A stretch of 64,000 nt of DNA, taken from NCBI GenBank assembly GCA_029571215.1, contig JAKPTE010000028.1:1-64000 (forward strand), read 5' to 3'. Shown here one piece after another: positions 36,344 through 50,341 of this stretch. Each line of letters starts with the position of its first letter. Position 1 is the stretch's first letter. The notes below the pieces were generated by a model. The model had not been told where the DNA came from and searched no databases. It worked only from the letters and a program-made list of their open reading frames with translations. Origin of the DNA: Bacteroidota bacterium (GTDB lineage Bacteria > Bacteroidota > Bacteroidia > Bacteroidales > JAAYUG01). Both the position numbers and the translations under genes were made by a program.

Positions 36344-36799
36344 TTATTTTGTTTCCACATAGGAGAGGATAGCTGCAGCTTCCCCTGGAGTGCCATCAGG
36401 AAATTCAATAAACAGATGATATACTCCGGTTTTTGTGCAGGCAAAATCGAATCCGGGGTAATCCTTGCCGGTTGCGGGATTAAAAGTTGTGCCCATCAGG
36501 CGGTTTTCGTCATATAGTTTCAGGACAACTTTTCCAGCAAACGAAGGACTTTTACAGACGGTAAAGCGGTAACGGACATTCTTTTTAAGAAGCATAGTGA
36601 ATTTGGCCGGGATAAGCTTTCCGTCGGCATTGAATTGCGGTTTACCGGCTTTAAAATCCTGAAGGTAGACGGCATCATTTCCAGCGTTCAGTGCACAATC
36701 CTGAATTTCTTTGCTCAGGTCCTGGCCTGAAAGCTGGCAGGGAAGAAGGATAGACGTCAGGAAGACCAACAGGCGGATTATTTTGAATAGTTGCTTCAT
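36344..36799 (-). CDS. Small exported protein of unknown function
   Basis: The 151-residue protein has a signal peptide (FKIIRLLVFLTSILLPCQLSG, cleaved near residue 25). The mature part is mostly beta-strand-like, with two cysteines (CKSPSF near 82 and FACTKTG near 118) and the pattern GVYHLFIEFPDGTPGEAAAI near the end. I do not recognise a named family; it may be a periplasmic beta-sandwich. It starts 15 bases after the lipoprotein gene upstream, so the two are probably cotranscribed. Confidence 0.6.
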   Translation of the reverse strand: MKQLFKIIRLLVFLTSILLPCQLSGQDLSKEIQDCALNAGNDAVYLQDFKAGKPQFNADGKLIPAKFTMLLKKNVRYRFTVCKSPSFAGKVVLKLYDENRLMGTTFNPATGKDYPGFDFACTKTGVYHLFIEFPDGTPGEAAAILSYVETK

Positions 36800-36814: not shown

Positions 36815-37708
36815 TCAGAGAGACAAAAGATTATTGCGCAGTTTTTTTGTTTCATCCAGAATTTTTGGAAGAACATCCGGTTTTATTTCCACGTGGCTTT
36901 TTTCGTTTTGTTTAATCACCAGCATGCCGTTTTCTTCAACCATTTCCGGTTCACCGAGTTCATAGGTAATTGTAACCTGATCAAAGAGTTTTTTGATAGG
37001 TTCCATCAATTCGATAAGGGAATTAAAATAAGGATCTCTTTTATAGTTTTTCAGAACCAGAAGGAGGTCAGCGAGCACGATTTTTTGTTCTCCGATTCGT
37101 TCCGCAAGATCAGGGTGGGGTTTTTGGTTGTACATGGTAGTGGCCAGGTAAAGGCCTTCAATCCAGGTTCCGGTTATGATCAGTGCGCTCAGGTTTCCTC
37201 TTTTGTTGGTTCTCAGATAATCGTCCATCTGATTAAATGAATGAACCGATATAAAAATGAGGGAATCCAGATTTTTGTCATTTGTGGCAAGACGTTTCAG
37301 GGTAACGAAGTCGAAAAACTGACCTATGCGCAGGTCTTCTGAGAGGTTTTTTATGGCGGTGAGGTAATCTACAACCGACGTGCGTTTGTTGTAAATATTC
37401 AGGTAGCCAAGATCTGCCCCATAGATTCCCAGATGGAGAGCCTGTTGGTTTTCGGTGGTTATCCGGGAAAGATCATTCGGATTGGCAAGAGAGCCCTGTG
37501 AAAATGGAGCACCGACTTTTTTCAGCAAAGCAGCAATTTCAACCGGAGAAGAGAGGTTGTCGATGATTTCAGCCATAGCCTGCTGTGAAATAGCCATGCT
37601 TTCTGACAATAACGAATCAGATATTTCACCAAAATCGGTTCTGGAACTCTTTCTTCCGCAACCTGCCAAAACAAAAGCAATGATAAGGACAATCGCTAGT
37701 TTATGCAT
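36815..37708 (-). CDS. Lipoprotein of unknown function
   Basis: The 297-residue protein carries a lipobox, LAGC with the lipidated cysteine at residue 17, so it is anchored in the outer or inner membrane. The mature part is predicted to be mostly alpha-helical, with blocks NAIKNLSEDLRIGQFFDFVT-like in the middle and ELVLADLLLVLKNYKRD-like further on. No enzyme motif is visible. An exact -7 box lies 27 bases upstream, so it may start its own unit after the ABC gene. It is followed by a small exported protein, which suggests an envelope pair. Confidence 0.65.
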   Translation of the reverse strand: MHKLAIVLIIAFVLAGCGRKSSRTDFGEISDSLLSESMAISQQAMAEIIDNLSSPVEIAALLKKVGAPFSQGSLANPNDLSRITTENQQALHLGIYGADLGYLNIYNKRTSVVDYLTAIKNLSEDLRIGQFFDFVTLKRLATNDKNLDSLIFISVHSFNQMDDYLRTNKRGNLSALIITGTWIEGLYLATTMYNQKPHPDLAERIGEQKIVLADLLLVLKNYKRDPYFNSLIELMEPIKKLFDQVTITYELGEPEMVEENGMLVIKQNEKSHVEIKPDVLPKILDETKKLRNNLLSL

Positions 37709-37912: not shown

Positions 37913-40900
37913 TCAGCGGAGTGAGAGCAGATTTTTTCTTTTTTTCCGCAATGAAGATATCCGATTCAATAGCTTCAGAAGAAGGTCAAAGTAAAGAATG
38001 GCATACAACAGCAATCCATAACAAACGATAAACAGGACATTAAACCAGTAGGTATCAATCAGAAAGCCGGCAAAATATTTGCGCGGAGCGAAAAAATGGG
38101 ATCGGAAATCTAAAGGACCGGAAGGTTCAGGGTCGCGGTAAACAGGGTCAAACTGTTGATATAAATGGTGTTCGTATTCGAGGATCTTTTTCTTTTCGAA
38201 TATTTTTCTCACCTGATCGGATACACTTTCATTAAAATAAGAGTCATACAGATAATAATACCTTTCCCTGTTCCGGGCCAGCATGAGACTGACCAGGTTT
38301 TCCTTCATGGCATTGTATTTCAGAAATATCCTGTTGTAGAATGAGTCCAGCGAATCGAAATACTGCCTGGCAGCTTTCAGCATATCATCAGTGAACTTTT
38401 CAGGGGAGGGCAATGAAGGAGCGGGAAATCGTACATCGGGAGTAAGCCGGATTTGTTTCCGGATCTCATTTGAAACCAGCAGCAGGTCAGAATTGATACC
38501 CGAAGAATCCTTTATGGAAATTTCTTGGTTCTCTGCACGATCCAGCCTTTTTCTCAATTCGGGGATATAATACCCCTGCATAAAATCGGCATGACTGATT
38601 TCCTTTTCAAGCGGATAAAAGTATTGCTGATAGCGGTTATCTTTATATTGGTGAACCATCAGTGCTTCGTACGACCATTTGGTTGGCATGAATTCGGCCA
38701 GGAGGGGGGTTTTGTCTACGCGTGTAATCAGTCGGTTCAGTTTGTCAAATGGGAACATTGCGCCGCTGAGCACCATCATAGGAATAATGAGCAGGGGAAT
38801 CATAATGTAAATTGTCACCACCGAATTAAACGAGGAAGACACAATTAGCCCCATCAGATTGGAACAGGCGGCAGTGACAAAGAAAGCCAGCCAGTAATAG
38901 AAGGTCATTTCCCTTATGGAAAGCATATTGTTGCCAATCAGAATAAATACGATTGCCTGTAAAGCAGAAATAGCCAGCAGGATAAATATTTTCGACATCA
39001 GATAGCTTGAGCGGCTGAGGTGTAGGAATTGCTCGCGTTTCAGGATTTTCCGGTCGTGGAAGATTTCTTCAGCGCTGAGGGTAAGTCCCAGAAAGACAGC
39101 AACGATCAGGATCATGAAAATATAGATGGGAATATTTTCATTCTCGCGGTATATATATGTGCTGGATCCGGGGTTGGCAATATATCGTATCAGGAAGGAA
39201 AGCAGAAGTGCAAGGGCAGGGGTTTCTATAAGGTTGAGTGCAATGTATTGTTTATTATGGAGTTTGGCAATAATGTCTCTTTTCAGGTAAATGCTGAATT
39301 GCCGGAACCATGATGGGACGGCAAGAATCCGGGGAGGTGGTTCTGATACAGGAGGTAATGATTCAGGAGCAATATTTTCAAGGTATAGCTGATGCCACTG
39401 TTCCGGAGAAACCTTTCGCTTTCCCGTATATTGCCCGTATTCGTTAACAACTTCAGCCTCAATGATGGAGAAAATCTGTTCGGGATTTACGTTTCCGCAC
39501 AGGGGGCATTCACCTATTTCACTGTTGATTTGTTTATCCAATCGTTTGAAGTACATCACTGATTCCACCGGATTTCCGTAGTAGACCAAATATCCGCCCG
39601 TATCAAGGATCAGGATTTTGTCAAACATTTTGAATATTTCGGAGGAGGGCTGATGGATGACCACAAAAACTAGTTTTCCTTTTTGCGACAATTCCCTGAG
39701 GAGGTCCATCACATTCTCGGAATCGCGAGAAGACAAACCGGAAGTTGGTTCGTCTACAAAGAGCACCGAAGGTTCACGTATGAGTTCAAGAGCAATGTTG
39801 AGGCGTTTTCGCTGACCACCTGAAATTTCCCTGTTCAGAACGGATCCCACTTTCAGATGGCTGTATTCCAGAAGGCCAAGGTTTTTCAGCACCTGATTGG
39901 TAAGTGCTGTAATTTCATCCGTTGATTTGTTTCTGAAGCACTGGCATGCAGCAAACCAAAGGTTCTGGAATACAGTAAGTTCTTCAATCAGCAGGTCATC
40001 CTGCGGAATAACGCCAATTATTCCTTCCAGCTCTTTTTTTCTTTTATGGAGGTCGAGACCGTTAATGTAAATTTCTCCCTGAAAAGGTTTCTCAATACCT
40101 GAGAGAACATTCAGAAGGGTTGTTTTTCCTGCTCCGCTTGCTCCCATAATTCCAATCAGCCGACCCTGTGGTTCGGCAAAGCTGATATCCCGTAGTCCGA
40201 ATTCACCGTTCGGGAAACGAAAGGAAATGTTTCGTGCTTCAAAGAGGATCTGCTGACCAGGTATCAGGGGTTGAAACCGGGAAGAAACATCGCTGTAGTA
40301 AACAGGTTTGCTTTTAGGAAAACGCAGGGCACTCCCGCTGGCAAACAGGTAAATTCTGTCAGGAAAAACCTCCATTCCGTTCAGGGTTACCAGATCCTTA
40401 CCCGAATATTTCAAAAAGTACAAATCAACGGAAGGAATTCTCAGGATAAATACTTCACCGGAAACGGATTCGCGGCTGATAAAGGTAATTTGATCCGGCC
40501 CGGGCGCAGAAGAACCAATGATGACCAGGTTGGGGTCGGGATGAACAGTAGGGGAAGGCAATGCGGCAAAACGACGGATGCTTTCAAATTCATCGGTTGA
40601 GATATTAAAGACTTCGGCCACTGTGTTGATGATGGCCATCCGCTGAGCGCTGTATCTTTTGTTGATATTGATCAGTTCAAAAAGGCGGATTAAAACGATA
40701 ATTTTCTGCTCGCGGGTGAGGGTTTTGTTGATTTTACGACAGATACTGAGAATTTTCACAGAATCCCTGACGGAAGTAAGCCGGTATTGTCTGGCTGAGA
40801 TATCTTTCTTATCAGAATCATATGAAGGGATTTCTGCTATTTTTTCAAAGAGATGAAAATATTCGTTGACCTTCTCATGGCTGAGCTGACGACTGAGAAA

Positions 40901-40999
40901 TTCCCTGATAAAATTCAGTTCATCGGAGGCAATACCCTCGTCCTGTTTGGCAATAATGCCAAAGAGCTGCATCAGGGCTTTCAGAATTTCTTCGCTCAT
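37913..40999 (-). CDS. Large ABCG-type ABC transporter with TerB-like N-terminal domain
   Basis: The 1028-residue protein is a fused ATPase and permease. Residues 1-140 are helical and TerB-like (LFGIIAKQDEGIASDELNFI); residues 155-235 look like a small beta-domain, possibly a degenerate FHA fold (LVTLNGMEVFPDRIYL). The ABC domain follows at 255-480: Walker A GASGAGKTT at 286-294, signature ISGGQRKRLN at 393-402, Walker B VLFVDEP. A CPLCG motif (498-502) precedes an ABCG-like permease with about six TM helices (585-760), a 200-residue soluble part and a last TM near 985-1010. It ends the signalling operon 24 bases after the SiaC-like gene. Substrate unknown. Confidence 0.82.
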   Translation of the reverse strand: MSEEILKALMQLFGIIAKQDEGIASDELNFIREFLSRQLSHEKVNEYFHLFEKIAEIPSYDSDKKDISARQYRLTSVRDSVKILSICRKINKTLTREQKIIVLIRLFELININKRYSAQRMAIINTVAEVFNISTDEFESIRRFAALPSPTVHPDPNLVIIGSSAPGPDQITFISRESVSGEVFILRIPSVDLYFLKYSGKDLVTLNGMEVFPDRIYLFASGSALRFPKSKPVYYSDVSSRFQPLIPGQQILFEARNISFRFPNGEFGLRDISFAEPQGRLIGIMGASGAGKTTLLNVLSGIEKPFQGEIYINGLDLHKRKKELEGIIGVIPQDDLLIEELTVFQNLWFAACQCFRNKSTDEITALTNQVLKNLGLLEYSHLKVGSVLNREISGGQRKRLNIALELIREPSVLFVDEPTSGLSSRDSENVMDLLRELSQKGKLVFVVIHQPSSEIFKMFDKILILDTGGYLVYYGNPVESVMYFKRLDKQINSEIGECPLCGNVNPEQIFSIIEAEVVNEYGQYTGKRKVSPEQWHQLYLENIAPESLPPVSEPPPRILAVPSWFRQFSIYLKRDIIAKLHNKQYIALNLIETPALALLLSFLIRYIANPGSSTYIYRENENIPIYIFMILIVAVFLGLTLSAEEIFHDRKILKREQFLHLSRSSYLMSKIFILLAISALQAIVFILIGNNMLSIREMTFYYWLAFFVTAACSNLMGLIVSSSFNSVVTIYIMIPLLIIPMMVLSGAMFPFDKLNRLITRVDKTPLLAEFMPTKWSYEALMVHQYKDNRYQQYFYPLEKEISHADFMQGYYIPELRKRLDRAENQEISIKDSSGINSDLLLVSNEIRKQIRLTPDVRFPAPSLPSPEKFTDDMLKAARQYFDSLDSFYNRIFLKYNAMKENLVSLMLARNRERYYYLYDSYFNESVSDQVRKIFEKKKILEYEHHLYQQFDPVYRDPEPSGPLDFRSHFFAPRKYFAGFLIDTYWFNVLFIVCYGLLLYAILYFDLLLKLLNRISSLRKKRKNLLSLR

Positions 41000-41023
41000 C
41001 TATGTAGTATTAAGGGACTTTGC

Positions 41024-41398
41024 CTAATAAGGCAGGTGATCAAAAGGAATATCAACAATCTCAGAATATTCGATGCCGGCGTCGGCCATATCTTCATCGT
41101 TTTTTGGGTAGTGCCATCTGATGCGAACATTTTTTCCTTCGGCGGAAAGTTTTTCAAGCCGAAGAAGGATATCGAGGATGATTTTGGAAGAAGCCGTATT
41201 GAAATACGACATCTGAAAATCAACGACTGTGTTTTCAGCCGGTGAGGCAAGATATTCATCAAGCCAATGCAATACCGGACTATAAAAATTGGATACATCT
41301 TCGGGCAAGGATCTGCCGGAAAATTTGAAATTTCCTGTTTCCGGGTTCAGGAAAATTTCAGGTGTATCTTCTTTTGCTGGTATGTGCATCATGTTCAT
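41024..41398 (-). CDS. DUF1987 / SiaC-like regulatory phosphoprotein
   Basis: The 124-residue protein matches DUF1987, the family of Pseudomonas aeruginosa SiaC. Family blocks are TPEIFLNPETGNFKFSGRSLPED near residues 12-34 and FQMSYFNTASSKIILDILLRLE near 61-82. SiaC is phosphorylated on a threonine by SiaB and dephosphorylated by SiaA; the equivalent threonine here appears to be Thr68 in FNTASSK. Unphosphorylated SiaC activates the diguanylate cyclase SiaD in Pseudomonas, but no such cyclase is in this window. It follows the SiaB-like kinase by 11 bases. Confidence 0.85.
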   Translation of the reverse strand: MNMMHIPAKEDTPEIFLNPETGNFKFSGRSLPEDVSNFYSPVLHWLDEYLASPAENTVVDFQMSYFNTASSKIILDILLRLEKLSAEGKNVRIRWHYPKNDEDMADAGIEYSEIVDIPFDHLPY

Positions 41399-41409
41399 AG
41401 GGAACGGTA

Positions 41410-41982
41410 TTATAATTTCCTTGGAATGAAGGCAGTAAACAGAAAGAAGTACATGTTTTTTTCAACAGGCACAAAACTGTAATCGAATTTCTTACCTGTT
41501 TTGCGGCGGATATCAATAAATCCAAGTCCAGCTCCGCCTCTTTGGGAAACATGTCCCTGAAGGATCTGGTTTTTGTAAAGGTTGTCCAGTTCGCTGCGCG
41601 TAAGATGATTAATATTGTTCAGGAGGGTTGATATTTCCTCCTTTTTGGCAGATGTAACCAGGTTTCCTGTAGTGATGGAGTATTCCCCGGGGCTTCTTGC
41701 AACAACAAATATTCCCCTACTGTCTTTTTGTGAGGAAATTTCGTTTTCATCGGAGTGCTTGCTGATGTTCTGAAGGGTTTCGACCAATACATGGAATACT
41801 CTCTGTTGAATGGTTTGAGGGTCATCGGGTTTTGTAATGCTTGTTTCGGTGAGTTCGGCGAATGTTTTGATCAAACCATGTGTAATGATTCCTTCGTAAA
41901 CCAAAAAAATCTCAAATGATTTCATGGACTTGTACACAGAGTAAACAAATTCCTGAAAACGGGTATTGTCTGTCTGAACCAT
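41410..41982 (-). CDS. SiaB family protein kinase (HATPase fold)
   Basis: The 190-residue protein resembles SiaB/DUF6272, an ATP-binding kinase of the GHKL fold related to anti-sigma kinases. The N-box is HVLVETLQNISKHS with Glu68 and Asn72; the G-motif is RGGAGLGFIDIRRKTG (148-163), and FDYSFVPVEKNMYFFLF ends the fold. It should phosphorylate the DUF1987 protein encoded 11 bases downstream. It has no membrane segment and no sensor domain, so control must come from partners such as the phosphatase 11 bases upstream. The gene set is the kinase-phosphoprotein core of a partner switch. Confidence 0.82.
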   Translation of the reverse strand: MVQTDNTRFQEFVYSVYKSMKSFEIFLVYEGIITHGLIKTFAELTETSITKPDDPQTIQQRVFHVLVETLQNISKHSDENEISSQKDSRGIFVVARSPGEYSITTGNLVTSAKKEEISTLLNNINHLTRSELDNLYKNQILQGHVSQRGGAGLGFIDIRRKTGKKFDYSFVPVEKNMYFFLFTAFIPRKL

Positions 41983-41993
41983 CTGGCTGGCTG

Positions 41994-44615
41994 TTAAAAT
42001 TCTATACCAATCATTAACACATCATCAAGTTGTTTTTCATTTCCTGTCCATTCCCTGAAATCACGGGCAAAGAGGTCGCTATATTCAGGCATGGTATAGC
42101 CGCGATACTGCAGAATGAGTTCCCTTACACGGTTGTTCCCATACTTGGATTTATCGGGGCCTCCGAGCTGATCAGTAAGGCCGTCGGTGAAAAAGAAGAT
42201 GCGATCGCCTTTGAGAACCTTAAAGGCATAGTTGGTAAAGGGTTTTTCTGTTTTCTTACCGACGGGGATGCCTCCAATAGCTTTCAAATCACCTTTGAAC
42301 TGAGTTATTTCCCCACTTCGCAGCAGGTAAAGGGGACGATGTGCTCCGGCAAACTGAACTTCCTGGGTATTCAGGTGGATCCGGACCAGCGCTACGTCCA
42401 TTCCATCCCGGGCGTCTGTATCAGTAGAGTGCTGGCGCAAAGTATTTCTGACTTCTTCATGCAGCAAATCAAGCAGGTGGGAGGCTGAAATTTCCTTTTC
42501 GCGTGTGGCAATATTGTTTAAAAGGAAATAGGCAATAAAGGATAGCATGGCTCCGGGAACTCCATGGCCTGTGCAATCAATTGCTGCCAGGTACAGGATG
42601 TCTTCCTGCCGGAAGAGCCATGGGAAATCGCCACTTACTACATCTTTAGCCTGGTAAAGCAGGAACGATTTAGGCAAGTGCTGCCGCAGCATCTTATTGT
42701 CGGGAATGATTGACTGCTGGATACGACGGGCATAGTTGATACTGTCCTGAATTTTCCGGTTTTTTTCTTCGATTTCCCGGTGCGTATTTTTAACTTCGGT
42801 AACATCATGTCCGACAAGCAAAACGGATTCCAGCTCATTGTCGGCAAATTCTGGAATCACATCAAAACTGATATACATGTAAGTGTCATTGCCACGAGAA
42901 TCATTTGCCAGAGCCACTTCACGGGTATATTTGCCAGGTGATTCCTTCATTTCGCTAATGGCAGACCGGAAAAAGACAAGCAATACCTCATTAAGACCGA
43001 TGTCTTCGATAGTTCTGCCGGTAACCTCTTTGGGAGTAAGGCCGGTATATTTTTCAATCATGGGATTGACATAGAAAAACTGTCCAGAAGGGCTGAGGCG
43101 CAAAATGAGGTCGGGTGAGTTTTCGGAAAGGGATTGCATTTTGCTTTTCAGGCGTTCTTCCTTTTCAGCCTTTTTGCGGGCAGTTATATCGCGGGTGTTC
43201 ATGAGAATTCCCTGGATAGCAGGATCATCCAGGAGATTACGTCCGGTAGTTTCGAGAAAGATTCTTTCCCCGTCTTTTTTCATGTAGGTATACTGGAGTG
43301 TCTGGGGCTGGGAAGGATTTTTGATCAGCTCGCTGAACATTGTACGCAGTTCGGCCTCCCCCCGGCGGGTTATGCGCTGCAGGTCTTTCCCTTTCATCAT
43401 TTCATTGGGTGTATATCCCAGGATGCGGGTTACCGAGGGACTGACGAATTTAAGCATCATGTTTTCATCATAAATAAATATGATTTCAGAAGCATTTTCG
43501 AGAAGTGAGTGAAGCCTTTTCTGGGCATTTTCCACTTCGCGTATCTGTGCTTCTAGCTTTTTGTTAGTAATTTGAAGCTGTTCCTGCGTGGCCTGCATTT
43601 CTTCCGCACTCATCCGCAACTGCTCTTCGCTTTCGCGGAGTTCTTCGGTAATTTTCTGTGCCTGGCGGAGCAGGTTTTCGGTTTGCTGGTTTACCCGTAG
43701 GTTAAACAGGGTACGGGCAATGATTTCTGCCAGTTCGCGCATGAACCGGATGGTCAGGTCGGGAATATGGTCTTCGAGGGAGGCTACTTCGATAACCCCT
43801 TGCAGCTTTTCGTCGATTATCAAAGGCACAATCAGGAGGCTCCGTGGTTTCCTGTCACCAAGAATACCGGATGTAATGGTCATATAGTCATCAGGGATTT
43901 CGGTACGGTAAATGAAATCCTTTTCATAGGCGCATTGTCCAATCAGTCCTTGTCCAATCCGAAATTCCTTCTGAACATATTTCTTCCGGTTATATGCGTA
44001 GGTGGCAACATTGATAAGGAGTTTCTTTTCTTCGTCATAAAAATACAGTGCTCCCTGAATGGCGTTGATGTACTTGATCAGATTGGTAATTACCTCATTG
44101 GATAGTTCCTCTATTTTGTTATGAATACGGAGAATATCAGATATTAGTTCTTTCCCTTCTGCAATCCAGTTTTGTTCCTGTTCCTTCCGGGAGTTGGCAA
44201 GGAGGTTATCGCGCATAACAAGAAGGGCTTTCCCCAGGATGTCATCTTCGCCGCTAAGGGTGTACTGAAAATGAAAATTGCCGGAACCAATTTCTTTGGC
44301 GAATGTTGCGTTGCATGAGTAGTTCTCTTCCAGCTTCCGGAGGTGTTCATGGAATGATTTACGGTCAGCATTCCTTTTGCGTATTTCCCCAAGAGTAATA
44401 AGGGCAAAAAGGAAAGGGAAAAGATCAACCAGAAAGTGGATGGGATTTCTGAGGTGGGATGCTCCGATGGTTTTGAATGTCAGCATTTCATTATGAATAC
44501 CTGCATCAAGAACCCATGCCATAAACGGGAAAAGCAACCCGGCGGCAAATGCGGCCATTATTCTTGTAGCAACAAAGCTGGAAGAAAGTTTATTATAAAC
44601 AGTTGAAATTTTCAT
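41994..44615 (-). CDS. GAF-PAS-PAS-SpoIIE/PP2C phosphatase, SiaA-like
   Basis: The 873-residue protein is a membrane-bound serine/threonine phosphatase. It has two TM helices (about 18-38 and 60-77), a HAMP-like stretch (GNFHFQYTL, then DDILGKALLVM), a GAF domain (150-310), a coiled coil (310-370), PAS (368-485), PAS (495-610) and a SpoIIE PP2C domain (640-873). Metal-site motifs are complete: VVSGDF (659-664), DCTGHGVPGAMLS (680-692), DGMDVAL, TDGLTDQ (810-816) and LDDVLMIGI near the end. By analogy with SiaA it should dephosphorylate the DUF1987 protein. It starts 5 bases after the GAF gene. Unlike SiaA, its sensing part is mainly cytoplasmic. Confidence 0.88.
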   Translation of the reverse strand: MKISTVYNKLSSSFVATRIMAAFAAGLLFPFMAWVLDAGIHNEMLTFKTIGASHLRNPIHFLVDLFPFLFALITLGEIRKRNADRKSFHEHLRKLEENYSCNATFAKEIGSGNFHFQYTLSGEDDILGKALLVMRDNLLANSRKEQEQNWIAEGKELISDILRIHNKIEELSNEVITNLIKYINAIQGALYFYDEEKKLLINVATYAYNRKKYVQKEFRIGQGLIGQCAYEKDFIYRTEIPDDYMTITSGILGDRKPRSLLIVPLIIDEKLQGVIEVASLEDHIPDLTIRFMRELAEIIARTLFNLRVNQQTENLLRQAQKITEELRESEEQLRMSAEEMQATQEQLQITNKKLEAQIREVENAQKRLHSLLENASEIIFIYDENMMLKFVSPSVTRILGYTPNEMMKGKDLQRITRRGEAELRTMFSELIKNPSQPQTLQYTYMKKDGERIFLETTGRNLLDDPAIQGILMNTRDITARKKAEKEERLKSKMQSLSENSPDLILRLSPSGQFFYVNPMIEKYTGLTPKEVTGRTIEDIGLNEVLLVFFRSAISEMKESPGKYTREVALANDSRGNDTYMYISFDVIPEFADNELESVLLVGHDVTEVKNTHREIEEKNRKIQDSINYARRIQQSIIPDNKMLRQHLPKSFLLYQAKDVVSGDFPWLFRQEDILYLAAIDCTGHGVPGAMLSFIAYFLLNNIATREKEISASHLLDLLHEEVRNTLRQHSTDTDARDGMDVALVRIHLNTQEVQFAGAHRPLYLLRSGEITQFKGDLKAIGGIPVGKKTEKPFTNYAFKVLKGDRIFFFTDGLTDQLGGPDKSKYGNNRVRELILQYRGYTMPEYSDLFARDFREWTGNEKQLDDVLMIGIEF

Positions 44616-44620
44616 AGCAA

Positions 44621-45415
44621 TCAGGCTCTGTTGTTTGTGTTGAAATTGCTGATCAGGATTTTTGCGACCAATTTACCAAGTTGTGTCAGTACCTGGAAAT
44701 CGTTTTCGCTAAAAGGTTTGAAGGCGGCAATTTCAATAAATCCGAGTTTTTTATCTTCTTCGGTAATCGGAAGGATGAGAAGAAATCCGGGATCTGAGCT
44801 GCCAAGGCCTGAGATGACAGTAAGATAATTTTTTGGCACATGGGTAACATAGAGTATGCGCCTGTCTTTAACTGCCTGCCCCGGCAAAGATTCCCCAAGT
44901 CGAATTTCGGGAGGCGGATCCGGAGAATACCAGGCATAGCGGGCAACGGGTCTGAATACGTCAGAATCTGGTACCGAAGAATAAAAAAGTCCGGTAACGA
45001 TTTCGAATTTCTGAGCGAGGTGGCTCAGAACTCCTTCGGCAAACAATTCCAATTTTTCCGGGATGGCGGCAGGGAGAAGATTCTCAGCATCTGCATGAAC
45101 CGACACAGTTGAATCGGATATTTCCCGGGTATTTTCCGAAGAAGAGAGCGATTCATTTACATTGATGGCAGGGGAGTTCGTTTCTGCTTCCGTATTAATG
45201 GTCTCGTCTTCAGAGATATTTTTTTGTACTGCCGAAAGAAAAAGAAAAAAAGAAAAAACACCCGCCAGAAGGATACCTGCAACAAAAGCAACTGTGAGGG
45301 TTTGGGAAGGAAGATTTTCCATTCTCTGAAAGAGGGAATACAGTAAGAGAAAATCGGCCAGAAGCAATATGAATAAAATAAAAATAGTCAACCTGTTATG
45401 TAAAAATTGCGTCAT
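44621..45415 (-). CDS. Membrane-anchored GAF domain protein
   Basis: The 264-residue protein has two N-terminal TM helices (about 9-29 and 38-62), an acidic Ser/Thr-rich linker (residues 65-118), and a single GAF domain (residues 120-258). The GAF domain carries RLGESLPGQAVKDRRILYV, HVPKNYLTVISGLGSSDPG and LGFIEIAAFKPF, the same subtype as in the phosphatase downstream and the sensor upstream. There is no kinase, cyclase or other output domain, so it probably works by binding a ligand and a partner protein. It lies 6 bases after cheB and 5 bases before the phosphatase gene. Confidence 0.78.
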   Translation of the reverse strand: MTQFLHNRLTIFILFILLLADFLLLYSLFQRMENLPSQTLTVAFVAGILLAGVFSFFLFLSAVQKNISEDETINTEAETNSPAINVNESLSSSENTREISDSTVSVHADAENLLPAAIPEKLELFAEGVLSHLAQKFEIVTGLFYSSVPDSDVFRPVARYAWYSPDPPPEIRLGESLPGQAVKDRRILYVTHVPKNYLTVISGLGSSDPGFLLILPITEEDKKLGFIEIAAFKPFSENDFQVLTQLGKLVAKILISNFNTNNRA

Positions 45416-45421
45416 TGTGAA

Positions 45422-45979
45422 TCAGGTTAAATTTGTCAGGAAATTTACAATTTGTTCCGGACTTAGCACAAAATCAGGATCCAATAATTTCAGTGCCGCT
45501 TCGGGCATTGTTTTGACTTCGCATGAAGCGGGTTCCTGTACAATGGTTATTCCTCCAAGTTCTTTAATTTTTGATATTCCGAGGGCTCCATCCTGATTTG
45601 CACCCGAAAGAAGTACTCCAATCAGGTGGTTGCGATATGCACGTGCGGCAGTAAGAAATGCAAGATCAATCGATGGGCGGGCATGATGGACGGGAGGCTC
45701 CGTACTGAGAGAAATGGTCTGATAGTTTTCGATCAGCATATGGTAATTGGCCGGTGCAAGGTATGCTGTTCCGGGAAGGATGACTTCCTTGTCAAACGGT
45801 TCTTTGATCGGAATGGACGCCTGTATGGAAAGTGCTTCCACAAAACCGGATCGGACATTCTTTAGACGGTGCAGACAAAGAAAGATTGGGAAAGATAAAG
45901 GAAAATGGAATGCATGCAGAATATTGACAACCGTTCTGAAACTGCCGGCGGATCCTCCGATGATGATCGCTTTATCCAT
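45422..45979 (-). CDS. cheB: CheB-type methylesterase, catalytic domain only
   Basis: The 185-residue protein is a stand-alone CheB esterase domain that lacks the receiver domain. The triad is intact: Ser10 in IIGGSAGSF, His37 in LCLHRL and Asp130 in LLSGANQDGALG. LPGTAYLAPANYHMLIE and HHARPSIDLAFLTAA are standard CheB blocks. CheB removes methyl (and amide) groups from chemoreceptors, but no receptor is seen here. It lies 3 bases after the degenerate cheR and 6 bases before the GAF gene. Without a receiver domain its control must be by expression or by protein partners. Confidence 0.88.
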   Translation of the reverse strand: MDKAIIIGGSAGSFRTVVNILHAFHFPLSFPIFLCLHRLKNVRSGFVEALSIQASIPIKEPFDKEVILPGTAYLAPANYHMLIENYQTISLSTEPPVHHARPSIDLAFLTAARAYRNHLIGVLLSGANQDGALGISKIKELGGITIVQEPASCEVKTMPEAALKLLDPDFVLSPEQIVNFLTNLT

Positions 45980-45982
45980 ACG

Positions 45983-46813
45983 TCATTTTTTCCGGTATAT
46001 TTTTTCTTCTGCATTAACAATCAGATAATTCTCGGCAAAAAAGGAAAGATCGATTTGTTCTTTATGTCCGATAACAAGAATACCCCCCTGATGAAGATTC
46101 TGGTGGAAGAATGATAGCGTCAGGTTCTGAAGATGTTTGCCAAAGTATAGCAATTGATTTCTGAAAAGTATCAGATCAAACGATGCGGAAAGTTTTTTTT
46201 CGGAAGGTAAAAAGGATACATCAAAATCAACATGGCTGTCCATAGGAAGGGTTTTATAGTACAAGATACCCTTGCTGGTGAAATAGTCAGTAAGCTGGTT
46301 TTTTCCGCCTGCAAGAAGATAATTTTCATTACTGGAAACGATTTTATCGCGCCGGGTAATGCCGGATAGGACATGTTCGAGGTTTTTTTGGCTGGGACAT
46401 GTGGCCAGTATCCGTACATTCGACAGAACTTCCATTTCATGGAGAAGAATGATAAGGGAATAAAGTTCATCTCCCGAAACGCAGGAAGGCACCCATATTT
46501 TTATATTACCCTTTTTACTGATGAGTTCAGGGAGGAGAGTTTCTCTTAAAAGGAGCCACATACCCGGATCACGGAAGAATTCGGTTGATTCCACCATGAG
46601 ATCAGCAAAGAATGTGTCGGTAAAAAGGGGGTCTTCACGGATCCGGGCAACGAGCATATCAGGAAAACGAAAATTGTGAAGCTGGATGCAACGGGTAAGC
46701 CTTCGACGTAAGGATGCTGTTGCAAACTCTCCCAGATCAACTCCGGTGATTTCCCTGACCTGCCGGACAAGGTTCATATAATCAACAAGACTTATTTCGT
46801 TGAGGAGGTTCAT
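45983..46813 (-). CDS. CheR-like protein with degenerate SAM-binding motifs
   Basis: The 276-residue protein has the CheR layout: N-terminal helical domain with FATASLRRRLTRCI, then VESTEFFRDPGMW, matching the other CheR of the operon in spacing. The SAM motif I, which reads IWDIGCSTGQE in that CheR (residues 106-116), reads IWVPSCVSGDE here. The following acidic strand ATDLNSE is ATCPSQK, and the FCRN motif is LFRN. These changes remove residues that normally hold SAM, so it may be a pseudoenzyme. The first bases overlap the end of the sensor gene by four, indicating translational coupling. It could be a scaffold or regulator. Confidence 0.78.
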   Translation of the reverse strand: MNLLNEISLVDYMNLVRQVREITGVDLGEFATASLRRRLTRCIQLHNFRFPDMLVARIREDPLFTDTFFADLMVESTEFFRDPGMWLLLRETLLPELISKKGNIKIWVPSCVSGDELYSLIILLHEMEVLSNVRILATCPSQKNLEHVLSGITRRDKIVSSNENYLLAGGKNQLTDYFTSKGILYYKTLPMDSHVDFDVSFLPSEKKLSASFDLILFRNQLLYFGKHLQNLTLSFFHQNLHQGGILVIGHKEQIDLSFFAENYLIVNAEEKIYRKK

Positions 46814-49455
46814 CTTCCGGTTTCTTTCCAGAGCAGGTTTCTCAGCCGTTCAATTTCTTTGTTGGCTTCTTCCAGCAACTTGTATTTAAGTCTTTTTTCG
46901 GTAATATCCTGTGCCAGGAAGTAAACCTTATAAATTCTTCCATTTTCATCTTTCAGTGGGGTAAAACCAGACATGAGCCAGATTTCTTCACCTGTGGGTT
47001 TGGTTCTTTTCAGTACTCCCGAATAGGATTTTTCTTTCATCAGTTCGTTCCAGATTTTTACGAACTGGTCCAACTCATCGGATTTCAGAAAATTTCTGTA
47101 ATTTTTTCCGATTACTTCTTTTCGTGCATATCCGGTTGTTCTGAGATAGTTTTCGTTAGCATCGGAAATGATGCCATCGGGTTGCAGGATGCAACGTATA
47201 AGGGATTCATCGACAGCGTGATACAAGGTTTCCAGTTCGAGGTTTTTGCGCAACAGTTCGCGTGTTTTTTCCTGAAGTACAATTTCCTGTTGTTTGGATT
47301 CCGTGATATCGGATGCTATGCATAAGATTCTGTTTATCTGCTGATTCATATCGGCAAGCGGGGTAAAGCTCATGCTGAGCCATATTTCCCGTCCACCGGC
47401 AAGACGGATGGATTCAACAGAATGCCTGGGTTTTCCGTTATTAAGATCATTCCATAGTTGCTGGTAGGAATCAGATGTTATATCAAGGTTCATCAGGGTT
47501 GCGTAACGTTTTCCGGTTACCAGCTGTGGTTTGGTTCCGATGAGCTGGCAGAAGCGTTCATTTACAGAAAGAATGCGGGAATCAGTATCGAGTTCAAGAA
47601 CAAGGGATGATTGGTTGATTGCTTTGAGAATACCGGTAATTTCGCGTTCACGACGGGTAGCTTCTTCCTGGGCAACCTGCAGCATTTCAATATTCTGGCG
47701 CATTTTTCTGTCCTGTTCTGCCAGTTCATGGGCCTGTTGTTGCGATTTTTCAAGAAGGATCCGGTTGCGGGTATTGATCTGAACCATCGAAAGGGCGGAG
47801 GCAATGCTTTCAGCCGATTTTTCTAGGAATTCACGGAAATGAGGTTCCGGTTCCTTCAGGCTTGCTATCTCCAGAACTCCCAGAACATGGTTATTCGTCA
47901 TTAGCGGAATGAGGATCAGGCATCCGGGTTTTGATTCACCCAAACCGGAAGTTATTTTAATGTAATTAGCCGGAATATCGGTGAGATAAATGCTGTTTTT
48001 CTCAAGAGCACAGGTGCCTACCAGACCCTCCCCGAAATAAAATGTGCGGCTTATGTATTTTTTTCGGTTGTAGGCAAAAGCGGATACCAGACGCAACAAG
48101 GGTTTTGAGTCACTTTCCGTATCCGAAAGGAACAAGGCTCCCTGGCTTGCTCCGATATCACGAACGATAAACCGAACCACCTGATCAGATAACGTTGTCA
48201 CATCGGTGCTCGATAATCTGATAACTTCAGCAAGCCGGGCAAGAGCTTCCGAGGTCCAACGGCGTTTCTTTTCTTCCTTTTCGAATTCCTTTCTTGTGTT
48301 TTCTGCCCTTTTAAGGCCATGTCCAAGGTTCAGAAGAGCATTACCTAATAAATCATGGTCGCTGAGTGGTGTGTATTCCGCAGAATAGTTGCCTTCAGCA
48401 ATGGCATTGGCGAAGTGTACCTTCTTCCGTAAATCTTCGGCATATGAATTAAGAATTTGATAAATTTCTTTTGTGTCAGAGACTCCTCCGGGCGGAATGG
48501 GCTCCGGAATATGCCCGTTGTACAGTTCCGAAAGATACCGTTTGAGTGTATTGAAAATAAAACGGACTTTCCGGCTGTATAAAGAAAACACAAGGAACAC
48601 CAGAGAAAATAAAAAGAGCCCCGCCGCCAGACCAGAGAAGTACAAACGTTGCAGTTGTTTGTTGGTCATTTCATTTGAAAGTCGAGCAAGCAGGTCAGTT
48701 GCACCCAGACAATCCGCAAGGAGGTCCCTCACAGCCTTTTCCTGTCCTGAGATCGATTGATAAATTTGAATCAGAATCGCTGATTCATCAGCCAGATTCC
48801 GGCTGATACCCGTTGAAAGGAACCCGGGAGAAGAAAGAATTGTATGTATTTTATAAAGGGACGGAAGATCTTCTGTTGTTACCCAGTTATGGTAGCTGAT
48901 CAGGTAATCGGCGGTGGTTTTTTTGTCAGGGATAATCTGAATGATTGAATTTTCAAGGCTGTCAAGTTTCTTTTCAAATTGCAATGAACGTTTTTCTGCT
49001 TCGATGATATCAGGAAGGATTTGTATGAATCCGGTGCGAAACTTTGTGTAATCATCAAGAAAATCATCCAGCGCTTTCGAAAGAGAAGGGAAACGGGCTA
49101 TACCATTCTTTATTTCAGACTGGGACAGGGTTTTATCAACCGAGCCAAGAAAATCCGGCAATTTATCATAGTCAGGGTGCCTGGTTGTTGGTACACCTGC
49201 AGCGGGGAATGCTGACAGGTCCCCATCCTTTTTTAATGCCCGGTACAGTATGGTAAGGTTTTTTCGTATTGTTTGAAATGAACGGTCAATTTTCTGCAGT
49301 TCTTCAAGCTGGTTGACTGAGTTCAGGAAAAGTGCAGTAAGCACAATACAGGTCACCGCAAACAAGGAGTAAATTACCAGGGTAAGATTTCTGAAAGTAA
49401 GCGTTTTCACCTTCCTGACCATTGTCTGTCTCATCAGATGGAAAGGGATATGCAT
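46810..49455 (-). CDS. Membrane sensor HAMP-GAF-PAS-PAS without output domain
   Basis: The 881-residue protein has TM1 (24-46), a periplasmic helical region of about 220 residues, TM2 (270-294), a HAMP-like region (295-385), a GAF domain (405-560), a coiled coil (560-612), and two PAS domains (613-725 and 745-855). It then ends in a short helix (KEIERLRNLLWKETGR). There is no histidine kinase, cyclase, phosphatase or receiver domain. The GAF block FGEGLVGTCALEKNSIYL and IPANYIKITSGLGESKPG match the other GAF proteins of the operon. The stop overlaps the next gene's start by four bases. It may signal by contact with CheR/CheB or the phosphatase. Confidence 0.83.
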   Translation of the reverse strand: MHIPFHLMRQTMVRKVKTLTFRNLTLVIYSLFAVTCIVLTALFLNSVNQLEELQKIDRSFQTIRKNLTILYRALKKDGDLSAFPAAGVPTTRHPDYDKLPDFLGSVDKTLSQSEIKNGIARFPSLSKALDDFLDDYTKFRTGFIQILPDIIEAEKRSLQFEKKLDSLENSIIQIIPDKKTTADYLISYHNWVTTEDLPSLYKIHTILSSPGFLSTGISRNLADESAILIQIYQSISGQEKAVRDLLADCLGATDLLARLSNEMTNKQLQRLYFSGLAAGLFLFSLVFLVFSLYSRKVRFIFNTLKRYLSELYNGHIPEPIPPGGVSDTKEIYQILNSYAEDLRKKVHFANAIAEGNYSAEYTPLSDHDLLGNALLNLGHGLKRAENTRKEFEKEEKKRRWTSEALARLAEVIRLSSTDVTTLSDQVVRFIVRDIGASQGALFLSDTESDSKPLLRLVSAFAYNRKKYISRTFYFGEGLVGTCALEKNSIYLTDIPANYIKITSGLGESKPGCLILIPLMTNNHVLGVLEIASLKEPEPHFREFLEKSAESIASALSMVQINTRNRILLEKSQQQAHELAEQDRKMRQNIEMLQVAQEEATRREREITGILKAINQSSLVLELDTDSRILSVNERFCQLIGTKPQLVTGKRYATLMNLDITSDSYQQLWNDLNNGKPRHSVESIRLAGGREIWLSMSFTPLADMNQQINRILCIASDITESKQQEIVLQEKTRELLRKNLELETLYHAVDESLIRCILQPDGIISDANENYLRTTGYARKEVIGKNYRNFLKSDELDQFVKIWNELMKEKSYSGVLKRTKPTGEEIWLMSGFTPLKDENGRIYKVYFLAQDITEKRLKYKLLEEANKEIERLRNLLWKETGR

Positions 49456-49471
49456 TTAGTCCATAACAGGA

Positions 49472-50341
49472 TTAAGGCAGAGGATTTTTTATAAAATAAA
49501 CCATGTCTTTCTTTTCGAAATGAGAAGAGAAGGGTCCGAGAATGCTTTCATGAAGACCAAGTACAAGGCAGCCTGACTCATGAAGGGAGCCATGAAAGGT
49601 CTTGAAAACTTTGTTCTGCAGATTGAAATTAAAGTAAATAATTACATTCCGGCAAAAAATAAGATCGAACTTACGGGACCAGATGTTACCTTGCTGAACG
49701 AGGTCATGTTTGCGAAAAACAGGTTTGGAAGTCAGAAAAGGTTTCATACGGATCAGGTCCCTGTTGTTATCAATCTCAAAATATTTTTCGTAGGGAACAT
49801 CGTAATGAATGGCCGTATTGTAAGGATTTTCCCTGATCACCTTGTCAAAATTATCCAGGTAACTGATATTGAAACGGTATCTATAAACTCCTTTTGAAGC
49901 AGCTGAGAGCACTTCCGAATTTAAATCGGTAGCATAGACATTGGTTTTTTCAAACAAGCCCAGTTCGTTGAGCAGGATGAGAAGGGAGTATACTTCCTGA
50001 CCGGTGGAGCATCCGATATCCCAGATATTGATAACGGGAAGATGGGCATACAGGGGGAGTACTTTGTAACGGAGCATATGCCAGACCTGGGGATCACGGA
50101 AAAGTTCCGTTGTATTGACGGTAACTTCGCGCACTATTTTTTCGGCAAATCCTTCATCCTGTTCAATGGCATGAAGCAACTGGGGAAGCGACATTTTGTG
50201 ATCTACCAGAATTTTGGCAATTCTTCTCCGGAGAGATTTATCTGAGTATTCCGAAAAGTCATAATCTGAAGCCTGGCGCAATGCAGAGATGAACATGCCA
50301 AGTTCCTGGTCTGATACTTCCATTGTAAGCGAAGATAACAC
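49472..50341 (-). CDS. cheR: CheR-type protein-glutamate methyltransferase
   Basis: The 289-residue protein is a conventional CheR. It has the N-terminal substrate domain (EYSDKSLRRRIAKIL), VNTTELFRDPQVW, and the SAM-binding motif INIWDIGCSTGQEVYSLLI (104-122) followed by YATDLNSEVLSAASKG and KFDLIFCRNVIIYFN (224-238). CheR methylates glutamates of chemoreceptors; here the target is unknown and could be the sensor encoded 16 bases downstream. It is the first gene of the signalling operon. A possible weak -7 box (TATATTTA, 50368 to 50361) lies 20 bases upstream of the ATG. Confidence 0.9.
   Translation of the reverse strand: MLSSLTMEVSDQELGMFISALRQASDYDFSEYSDKSLRRRIAKILVDHKMSLPQLLHAIEQDEGFAEKIVREVTVNTTELFRDPQVWHMLRYKVLPLYAHLPVINIWDIGCSTGQEVYSLLILLNELGLFEKTNVYATDLNSEVLSAASKGVYRYRFNISYLDNFDKVIRENPYNTAIHYDVPYEKYFEIDNNRDLIRMKPFLTSKPVFRKHDLVQQGNIWSRKFDLIFCRNVIIYFNFNLQNKVFKTFHGSLHESGCLVLGLHESILGPFSSHFEKKDMVYFIKNPLP

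Follow-up and report, generated by a model that had tools for sequence, protein, structure and literature searches.

A Bacteroidota gene cluster combining CheR and CheB with a SiaABC-type partner switch, and outputless sensors as candidate methyl-accepting receptors

What do a CheR methyltransferase and a CheB methylesterase act upon when they are encoded in an operon that contains no chemoreceptor? The question is raised by a stretch of 64,000 nucleotides (the window) from a Bacteroidota assembly of 2.1 Mb that is 76% complete, in which nine minus-strand open reading frames (ORFs) at 37913-50341 encode two CheR-like proteins, CheB, a sensor, a small GAF protein, a SpoIIE/PP2C phosphatase, a SiaB-type kinase, a SiaC phosphoprotein and an ABC protein. 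Comparison with related loci leads us to favour, somewhat above even odds, the view that the operon specifies a chemotaxis-like adaptation circuit, free of methyl-accepting chemotaxis proteins (MCPs), that feeds a partner switch controlling an ABC machine. A preliminary description of the locus had suggested that a methylated sensor could act through the switch on export; the comparative data favour methylation feeding the switch, but the substrate is likely broader than the operon sensor, control of the ABC protein is argued from linkage, and export was an assumption.

No MCPsignal domain is present within the operon. Sixty genomes (that of the window and its relatives) were searched with the degenerate CheR and the matching loci mapped; 24 of these genomes carry the operon. 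Many operon-bearing genomes do carry MCPs; however, none (PF00015) was found in seven of the 24, namely the window's own genome (76% complete), G001, G016, G020, G028, G048 and G054, and six of these seven are 90-99% complete. MCPs are therefore not the general substrate of CheR and CheB, and were rejected as such.

Candidate methylation sites in the GAF-coils

The phosphatase has a coil between its GAF and PAS domains with the consensus NAEEMxATQEEL, in which E338, E339, A342 and T343 are 84%, 92%, 77% and 92% conserved, respectively. The CheR consensus of Tsr is E-E-x-x-A-[ST], with sites 297, 304 and 311 spaced by seven (PMC1079850). The pattern EExxA[ST] occurs in 62 of 84 phosphatases (a set chosen without the motif) and in 68 of 86 sensors, as against 8 of 486 unrelated ORFs, and in the phosphatases and sensors taken together a Glu-Glu pair lies at +7 relative to the motif in 117 of 131 and at -7 in 82 of 131. 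The coils thus present E-E-x-x-A-[ST] sites at the heptad spacing expected of the cytoplasmic coil of a methyl-accepting receptor, although these are eroded in the operon sensor of the window.

The distribution of the motif follows that of the operon. A DNA pattern for EE[MLIF]xATQEE, used to scan the 60 genomes, is present in 20 of them (19 of the 24 with the operon, and one of the 36 without it) and in none of ten genomes in which CheB is found but the full operon is not. Of the 247 genomes in an independent sample of the phylum, 144 have some CheB but only three have CheB of the operon type, and the motif occurs in those three and no others.

Every motif carrier read outside the operon is an outputless GAF-coil sensor, with Cache, HAMP or other inputs followed by a GAF domain, the coil and often PAS; no output domain was found in the 17 standalone proteins scanned. 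With a profile of the GAF plus coil (A4) at a strict cut-off, at least one sensor outside the operon is found in 22 of the 24 operon genomes versus one of the 36 others (Fisher p about 4e-13, uncorrected for ancestry), counts that may include the operon phosphatase, which was allowed for; three further genomes have weaker matches. There are up to about 34 copies per genome (G037), and the window's own genome has two members outside the operon, of which L177 keeps EELRAT intact whereas the motif of L178 is eroded. The operon's own sensor was rejected as the sole methylation target, as many operons lack it and its coil motif is eroded in the window copy.

The two CheR-like proteins differ at a catalytic position. 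The Asp of the ATD motif is present in 48 of 48 homologues of the first, CheR1, and this S-adenosylmethionine-binding residue is lost in 50 of 50 Bacteroidales orthologues of the second, CheRd (contig-truncated loci being assigned), in which the RDP and RN motifs are retained. Loci of the Cytophagales type have a single CheR with the Asp retained. On the basis of this residue, CheR1 is called active and its neighbour a conserved pseudo-enzyme. The catalytic triad of CheB (Ser, His and Asp), aligned with 1chd/1a2o, is complete in 24 of 24 orthologues, and the cluster is thus predicted to encode both an active CheR and an active CheB. Neither CheA nor CheW is among the operon genes as judged with Pfam, no genome-wide search having been made.

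In some genomes the cluster is split, with both halves retained, and the GAF-coil sensor, often together with a CheR, adjoins the phosphatase half. The order is then CheR1, sensor, SpoIIE phosphatase, SiaB, SiaC, ABC protein, lipoprotein and small secreted protein (L199-L205), CheR1 often being present, divergent and directly upstream. Of the genomic evidence, this independent juxtaposition argues most strongly for methylation, sensor and phosphatase acting together.

These data suggest that the GAF-coils are probably the substrates of CheR and CheB. A similar likelihood attaches to the sensors acting on the phosphatase. The broader proposal, to which we give even odds, is that the outputless GAF-coil sensors constitute a second, MCP-independent class of methyl-accepting receptor, tuned by CheR1 and CheB with a pseudo-CheR partner, that sets a SiaABC-type PP2C phosphatase instead of CheA and has an ABC envelope machine as its output.

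Several observations weigh against the proposed circuit. Some phosphatase coils have an eroded consensus in spite of the presence of CheR and CheB (L047, L058), and the corresponding segment of the window's operon sensor reads EMLQVAQEE. The coils are rich in Glu in any case, some of the sensors were collected by means of the motif, and the co-occurrence statistics ignore shared ancestry. One genome (G011, 88% complete) has the motif with no CheB found, and another (G028) retains CheR/CheB and SiaB-SiaC-ABC with no linked phosphatase or sensor.

The strongest competing explanation is that the coil is an assembly code, in which sensors and phosphatase co-assemble, the conservation reflects coiled-coil contacts only, and CheR and CheB modify another member of the complex. 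The coil is heptad-regular, with conserved Leu/Met core positions and a conserved surface Thr-Gln as well as the Glu residues, which are common in coils, and the CheR/CheB and SpoIIE halves of the cluster are separable. However, it is the exact CheR consensus that is conserved, beyond Glu alone, the motif is limited in two samples to genomes with this type of CheB, and CheR1 adjoins the sensor and phosphatase genes in split genomes; we consider an assembly code unlikely.

Extent and conservation of the cluster

The nine genes are separated by 16, -4, 3, 6, 5, 11, 11 and 24 bases, which bears out the preliminary description of a close-packed minus-strand array with one four-base overlap, as do the Pfam assignments: CheR; GAF+PAS+PAS; a weaker, degenerate CheR; CheB without a receiver domain; GAF; GAF+PAS+PAS+SpoIIE; DUF6272; SiaC (PF09345); and TerB+ABC_tran+ABC2_membrane. 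The features are as follows.

49472..50341, minus strand: CheR1, predicted intact protein-glutamate methyltransferase (Pfam CheR; GCSTGQE, ATD and CRN motifs present); start codon GTG at 50341, with an in-frame ATG at 50323
46810..49455, minus strand: outputless GAF-coil-PAS-PAS sensor ("Sens" family; Pfam GAF_2 and PAS only, membrane anchor by eye)
45983..46813, minus strand: CheRd, putative pseudo-methyltransferase paralogue of CheR (ATD changed to ATC)
45422..45979, minus strand: CheB methylesterase domain alone, no receiver domain (Pfam; catalytic triad aligned)
44621..45415, minus strand: GAFm, small single-GAF protein (Pfam GAF_2; membrane anchor by eye; position beside CheB conserved)
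41994..44615, minus strand: SiaA-like phosphatase with membrane anchor, GAF, coil, PAS, PAS and SpoIIE/PP2C (Pfam)
43587..43604, minus strand: candidate CheR/CheB site EEMQAT, residues 338-343 of the phosphatase coil, fitting the Tsr consensus
41410..41982, minus strand: SiaB-type protein kinase (DUF6272; Pfam, 6kko_A)
41024..41398, minus strand: SiaC (DUF1987) phosphoprotein (PF09345, 3.6e-39)
37913..40999, minus strand: TerB + ABC ATPase + ABC2-type membrane protein, ABCG-like half transporter (Pfam; PDB relatives)
36815..37708, minus strand: helical lipoprotein with lipobox LAGC, no known family (without Pfam match; after the ABC gene in most relatives)
36344..36799, minus strand: small secreted beta-sandwich protein (without Pfam match; after the lipoprotein gene in Bacteroidales relatives)

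The nine genes described at first are confirmed, but the unit extends further: beyond the ABC gene there are usually two more, encoding a lipoprotein and a small secreted protein. The gap between the ABC and lipoprotein genes is 204 bases in the window; in several relatives it is about 5-100 bases or there is an overlap, and the two genes were therefore assigned to the cluster, their co-transcription in the window being a presumption from gene order. Promoter and terminator scans gave no signal above chance level.

A block of about eleven genes is shared by many Bacteroidota, and across the 60-genome sample its order recurs in numerous families. A second scan, of the GTDB contig set, gave 560 relatives, and the best 80 loci were mapped; these belong to Bacteroidales and Cytophagales (including Marivirga, Flammeovirga, Fulvivirga, Rhodocytophaga, Nafulsella and Perlabentimonas). 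The conserved core is CheR-CheB-GAFm-SpoIIE-SiaB-SiaC-ABC-lipoprotein, the Cytophagales loci being more distant, and the gene for the small secreted protein follows that for the lipoprotein in Bacteroidales. The variable gene is that of the GAF-coil sensor, which is absent from many otherwise complete operons (L044, L047, L058 and many Cytophagales loci). Loss of gene order in relatives had been named at the outset as grounds for abandoning the proposal; the order is instead highly conserved in two bacterial orders, and its recurrence with an ABC protein of 49-58% identity excludes a chance grouping.

Variants of the cluster were also seen. One lacks the phosphatase and sensor and has the order CheRd-CheB-SiaB-SiaC-ABC-lipoprotein-small protein (L060:8634-14356), and another has a single CheR and two tandem SiaB kinases between the phosphatase and SiaC (L051:12880-14059). 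A longer SiaB (374-379 aa, with an extra part) and SiaC lie just upstream of the CheR-CheB cluster in two loci (L047:1536-3040 and L046:14742-16257), and at L070:11188-14816 the operon has further che-like genes next to it, a third CheR and a longer CheB-like protein among them. On the CheR1 side, the window contains on its minus strand at 51969-56584 genes for a TMEM260-like O-mannosyltransferase (1028 aa), a polysaccharide deacetylase and an HPr-kinase-C-like protein; neighbours of equal size adjoin CheR1 in a sister genome (L043).

The phosphoswitch and its output

A SpoIIE/PP2C phosphatase, a SiaB kinase and SiaC are together in one operon, and this combination is conserved in relatives. 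Metal-binding Asp motifs are visible in the phosphatase. The kinase matches Pseudomonas aeruginosa SiaB (6kko_A) at 4.8e-9 and has the conserved boxes ETLQN..KH (the N-box) and GGAGLGFIDI. SiaC aligns over its full length with P. aeruginosa SiaC (PDB 6kko_C), its FNTASSK aligning to LYLNTSSIK such that the Thr is equivalent to T68, and this residue is retained in the operon copies. The phosphorylation state of T68 in P. aeruginosa SiaC is governed by SiaA and SiaB (PMC7647112). The three proteins very probably form a SiaABC-type phosphoswitch.

The output must differ from that of P. aeruginosa. No GGDEF protein was found in any of the 24 operon genomes, including the window's own, and the one genome of the 60 that has such a protein is without the operon; an output via SiaD and c-di-GMP was therefore rejected, and SiaC needs a partner other than SiaD. 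DUF1987 proteins have been proposed to modulate adjacent proteins (PMC8457831), and the gene order suggests that the ABC protein is a fairly likely partner of SiaC here.

Alternatively, SiaC may act on an unlinked partner, the genes for the ABC protein, lipoprotein and secreted protein being merely co-transcribed. The window's own genome has six SiaC genes, five of them in other contexts, and as a STAS-like adaptor (PMC8457831) SiaC could have many partners. However, the SiaB-SiaC-ABC linkage persists where the operon is split and where the cluster has lost its phosphatase (L060), and it is repeated in a paralogous cluster: on contig C3 of the window's own genome (L007:6862-10927) a paralogous ABC protein (945 bits) is encoded convergently with a second SiaC-SiaB pair, as it is in the sister locus L182. 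An unlinked output is rated unlikely, a little below the assembly code. That CheR and CheB serve ordinary MCPs encoded elsewhere, their place in the operon being incidental, is nearly refuted: MCPs are common among operon-bearing genomes and the operon of L070 adjoins other che-like genes, but seven of the 24 genomes have no detectable MCP, many MCP-bearing genomes have other, mostly receiver-length CheB copies, and the arrangement of the operon genes holds across two orders.

The steps that we infer in the preferred MCP-free circuit, namely methylation, coil contacts, phosphotransfer and ABC control, would run as follows. Variable membrane sensors (Cache, HAMP or other inputs; GAF, conserved coil and optional PAS) would share the GAF-coil module with the phosphatase. 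CheR1 would methylate, and CheB demethylate or deamidate, the heptad glutamates of the E-E-x-x-A-T coil and thereby set sensor gain, with CheRd, its SAM-binding Asp lost, as a possible regulatory or scaffold partner. The state of the sensors would be passed through coil or GAF contacts to the activity of the phosphatase; SiaB would phosphorylate SiaC at the conserved Thr and the phosphatase reverse this; and SiaC, in one of its two states, would bind the TerB-ABC membrane protein, which may work on the envelope with the lipoprotein and secreted protein.

No described system with these parts was found in the open-access literature (subscription papers and preprints not being covered), in agreement with an earlier remark. 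The SiaABCD operon of P. aeruginosa likewise has a PP2C phosphatase on a membrane sensor, a SiaB kinase and a SiaC with T68, whereas here there is no SiaD/GGDEF, the phosphatase is of GAF-coil-PAS-PAS form, and CheR/CheB and the ABC protein are in the unit. Che pathways, including alternative-function ones and Frz, share the intact catalytic residues of CheR and CheB and the many variable-input membrane sensors with heptad-spaced E-E-x-x-A-[ST] coils; the sensors here, however, are without the MCP signalling domain, the operon is without CheA/CheW, CheB has no receiver, and the output is a PP2C partner switch. Salmonella PhoP is a precedent for a CheR substrate outside MCPs, but it is a response regulator modified at an arginine (PMC8546571), whereas the candidate sites here are glutamates in the coil of sensors and phosphatase.

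If the proposed circuit is correct, reversible methylation of glutamates can serve sensory adaptation independently of MCPs and CheA, and a large group of Bacteroidota, some of which lack chemoreceptors, has put it to use in a Ser/Thr partner switch. The orphan proteins of these bacteria (GAF/PAS sensors and CheR/CheB) and their DUF1987/DUF6272 proteins would then have roles assigned to them; Marivirga and Flammeovirga are among the operon carriers that can be cultured.

The ABC protein had been described as ABCG-type, and Pfam confirms the ABC domains; the N-terminal TerB domain was missing from that description. Its PDB relatives are ABCG1/CDR1, and as in ABCG half transporters (ABCG1) the ATPase precedes an ABC2-type membrane domain. 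It differs from these in the N-terminal TerB and a further, unassigned stretch, in a long segment that precedes the last helix, and in the linked lipoprotein and secreted protein. Export as its function is doubtful. Fold searches gave no PDB match for the lipoprotein (AF2 pLDDT 80) and no function for either small product, the secreted protein (AF2 pLDDT 91) weakly resembling PliG / PPC-type beta sandwiches; the two point to an envelope function. On contig C115 of G001 (L181), the gene for a lipoprotein paralogue immediately precedes that for a further ABC paralogue, and SiaB/SiaC are absent. Residues 490-505 of the ABC protein, just after the ATPase domain, contain two invariant cysteines (C498 and C501, GECPxCG), a possible metal or redox site.

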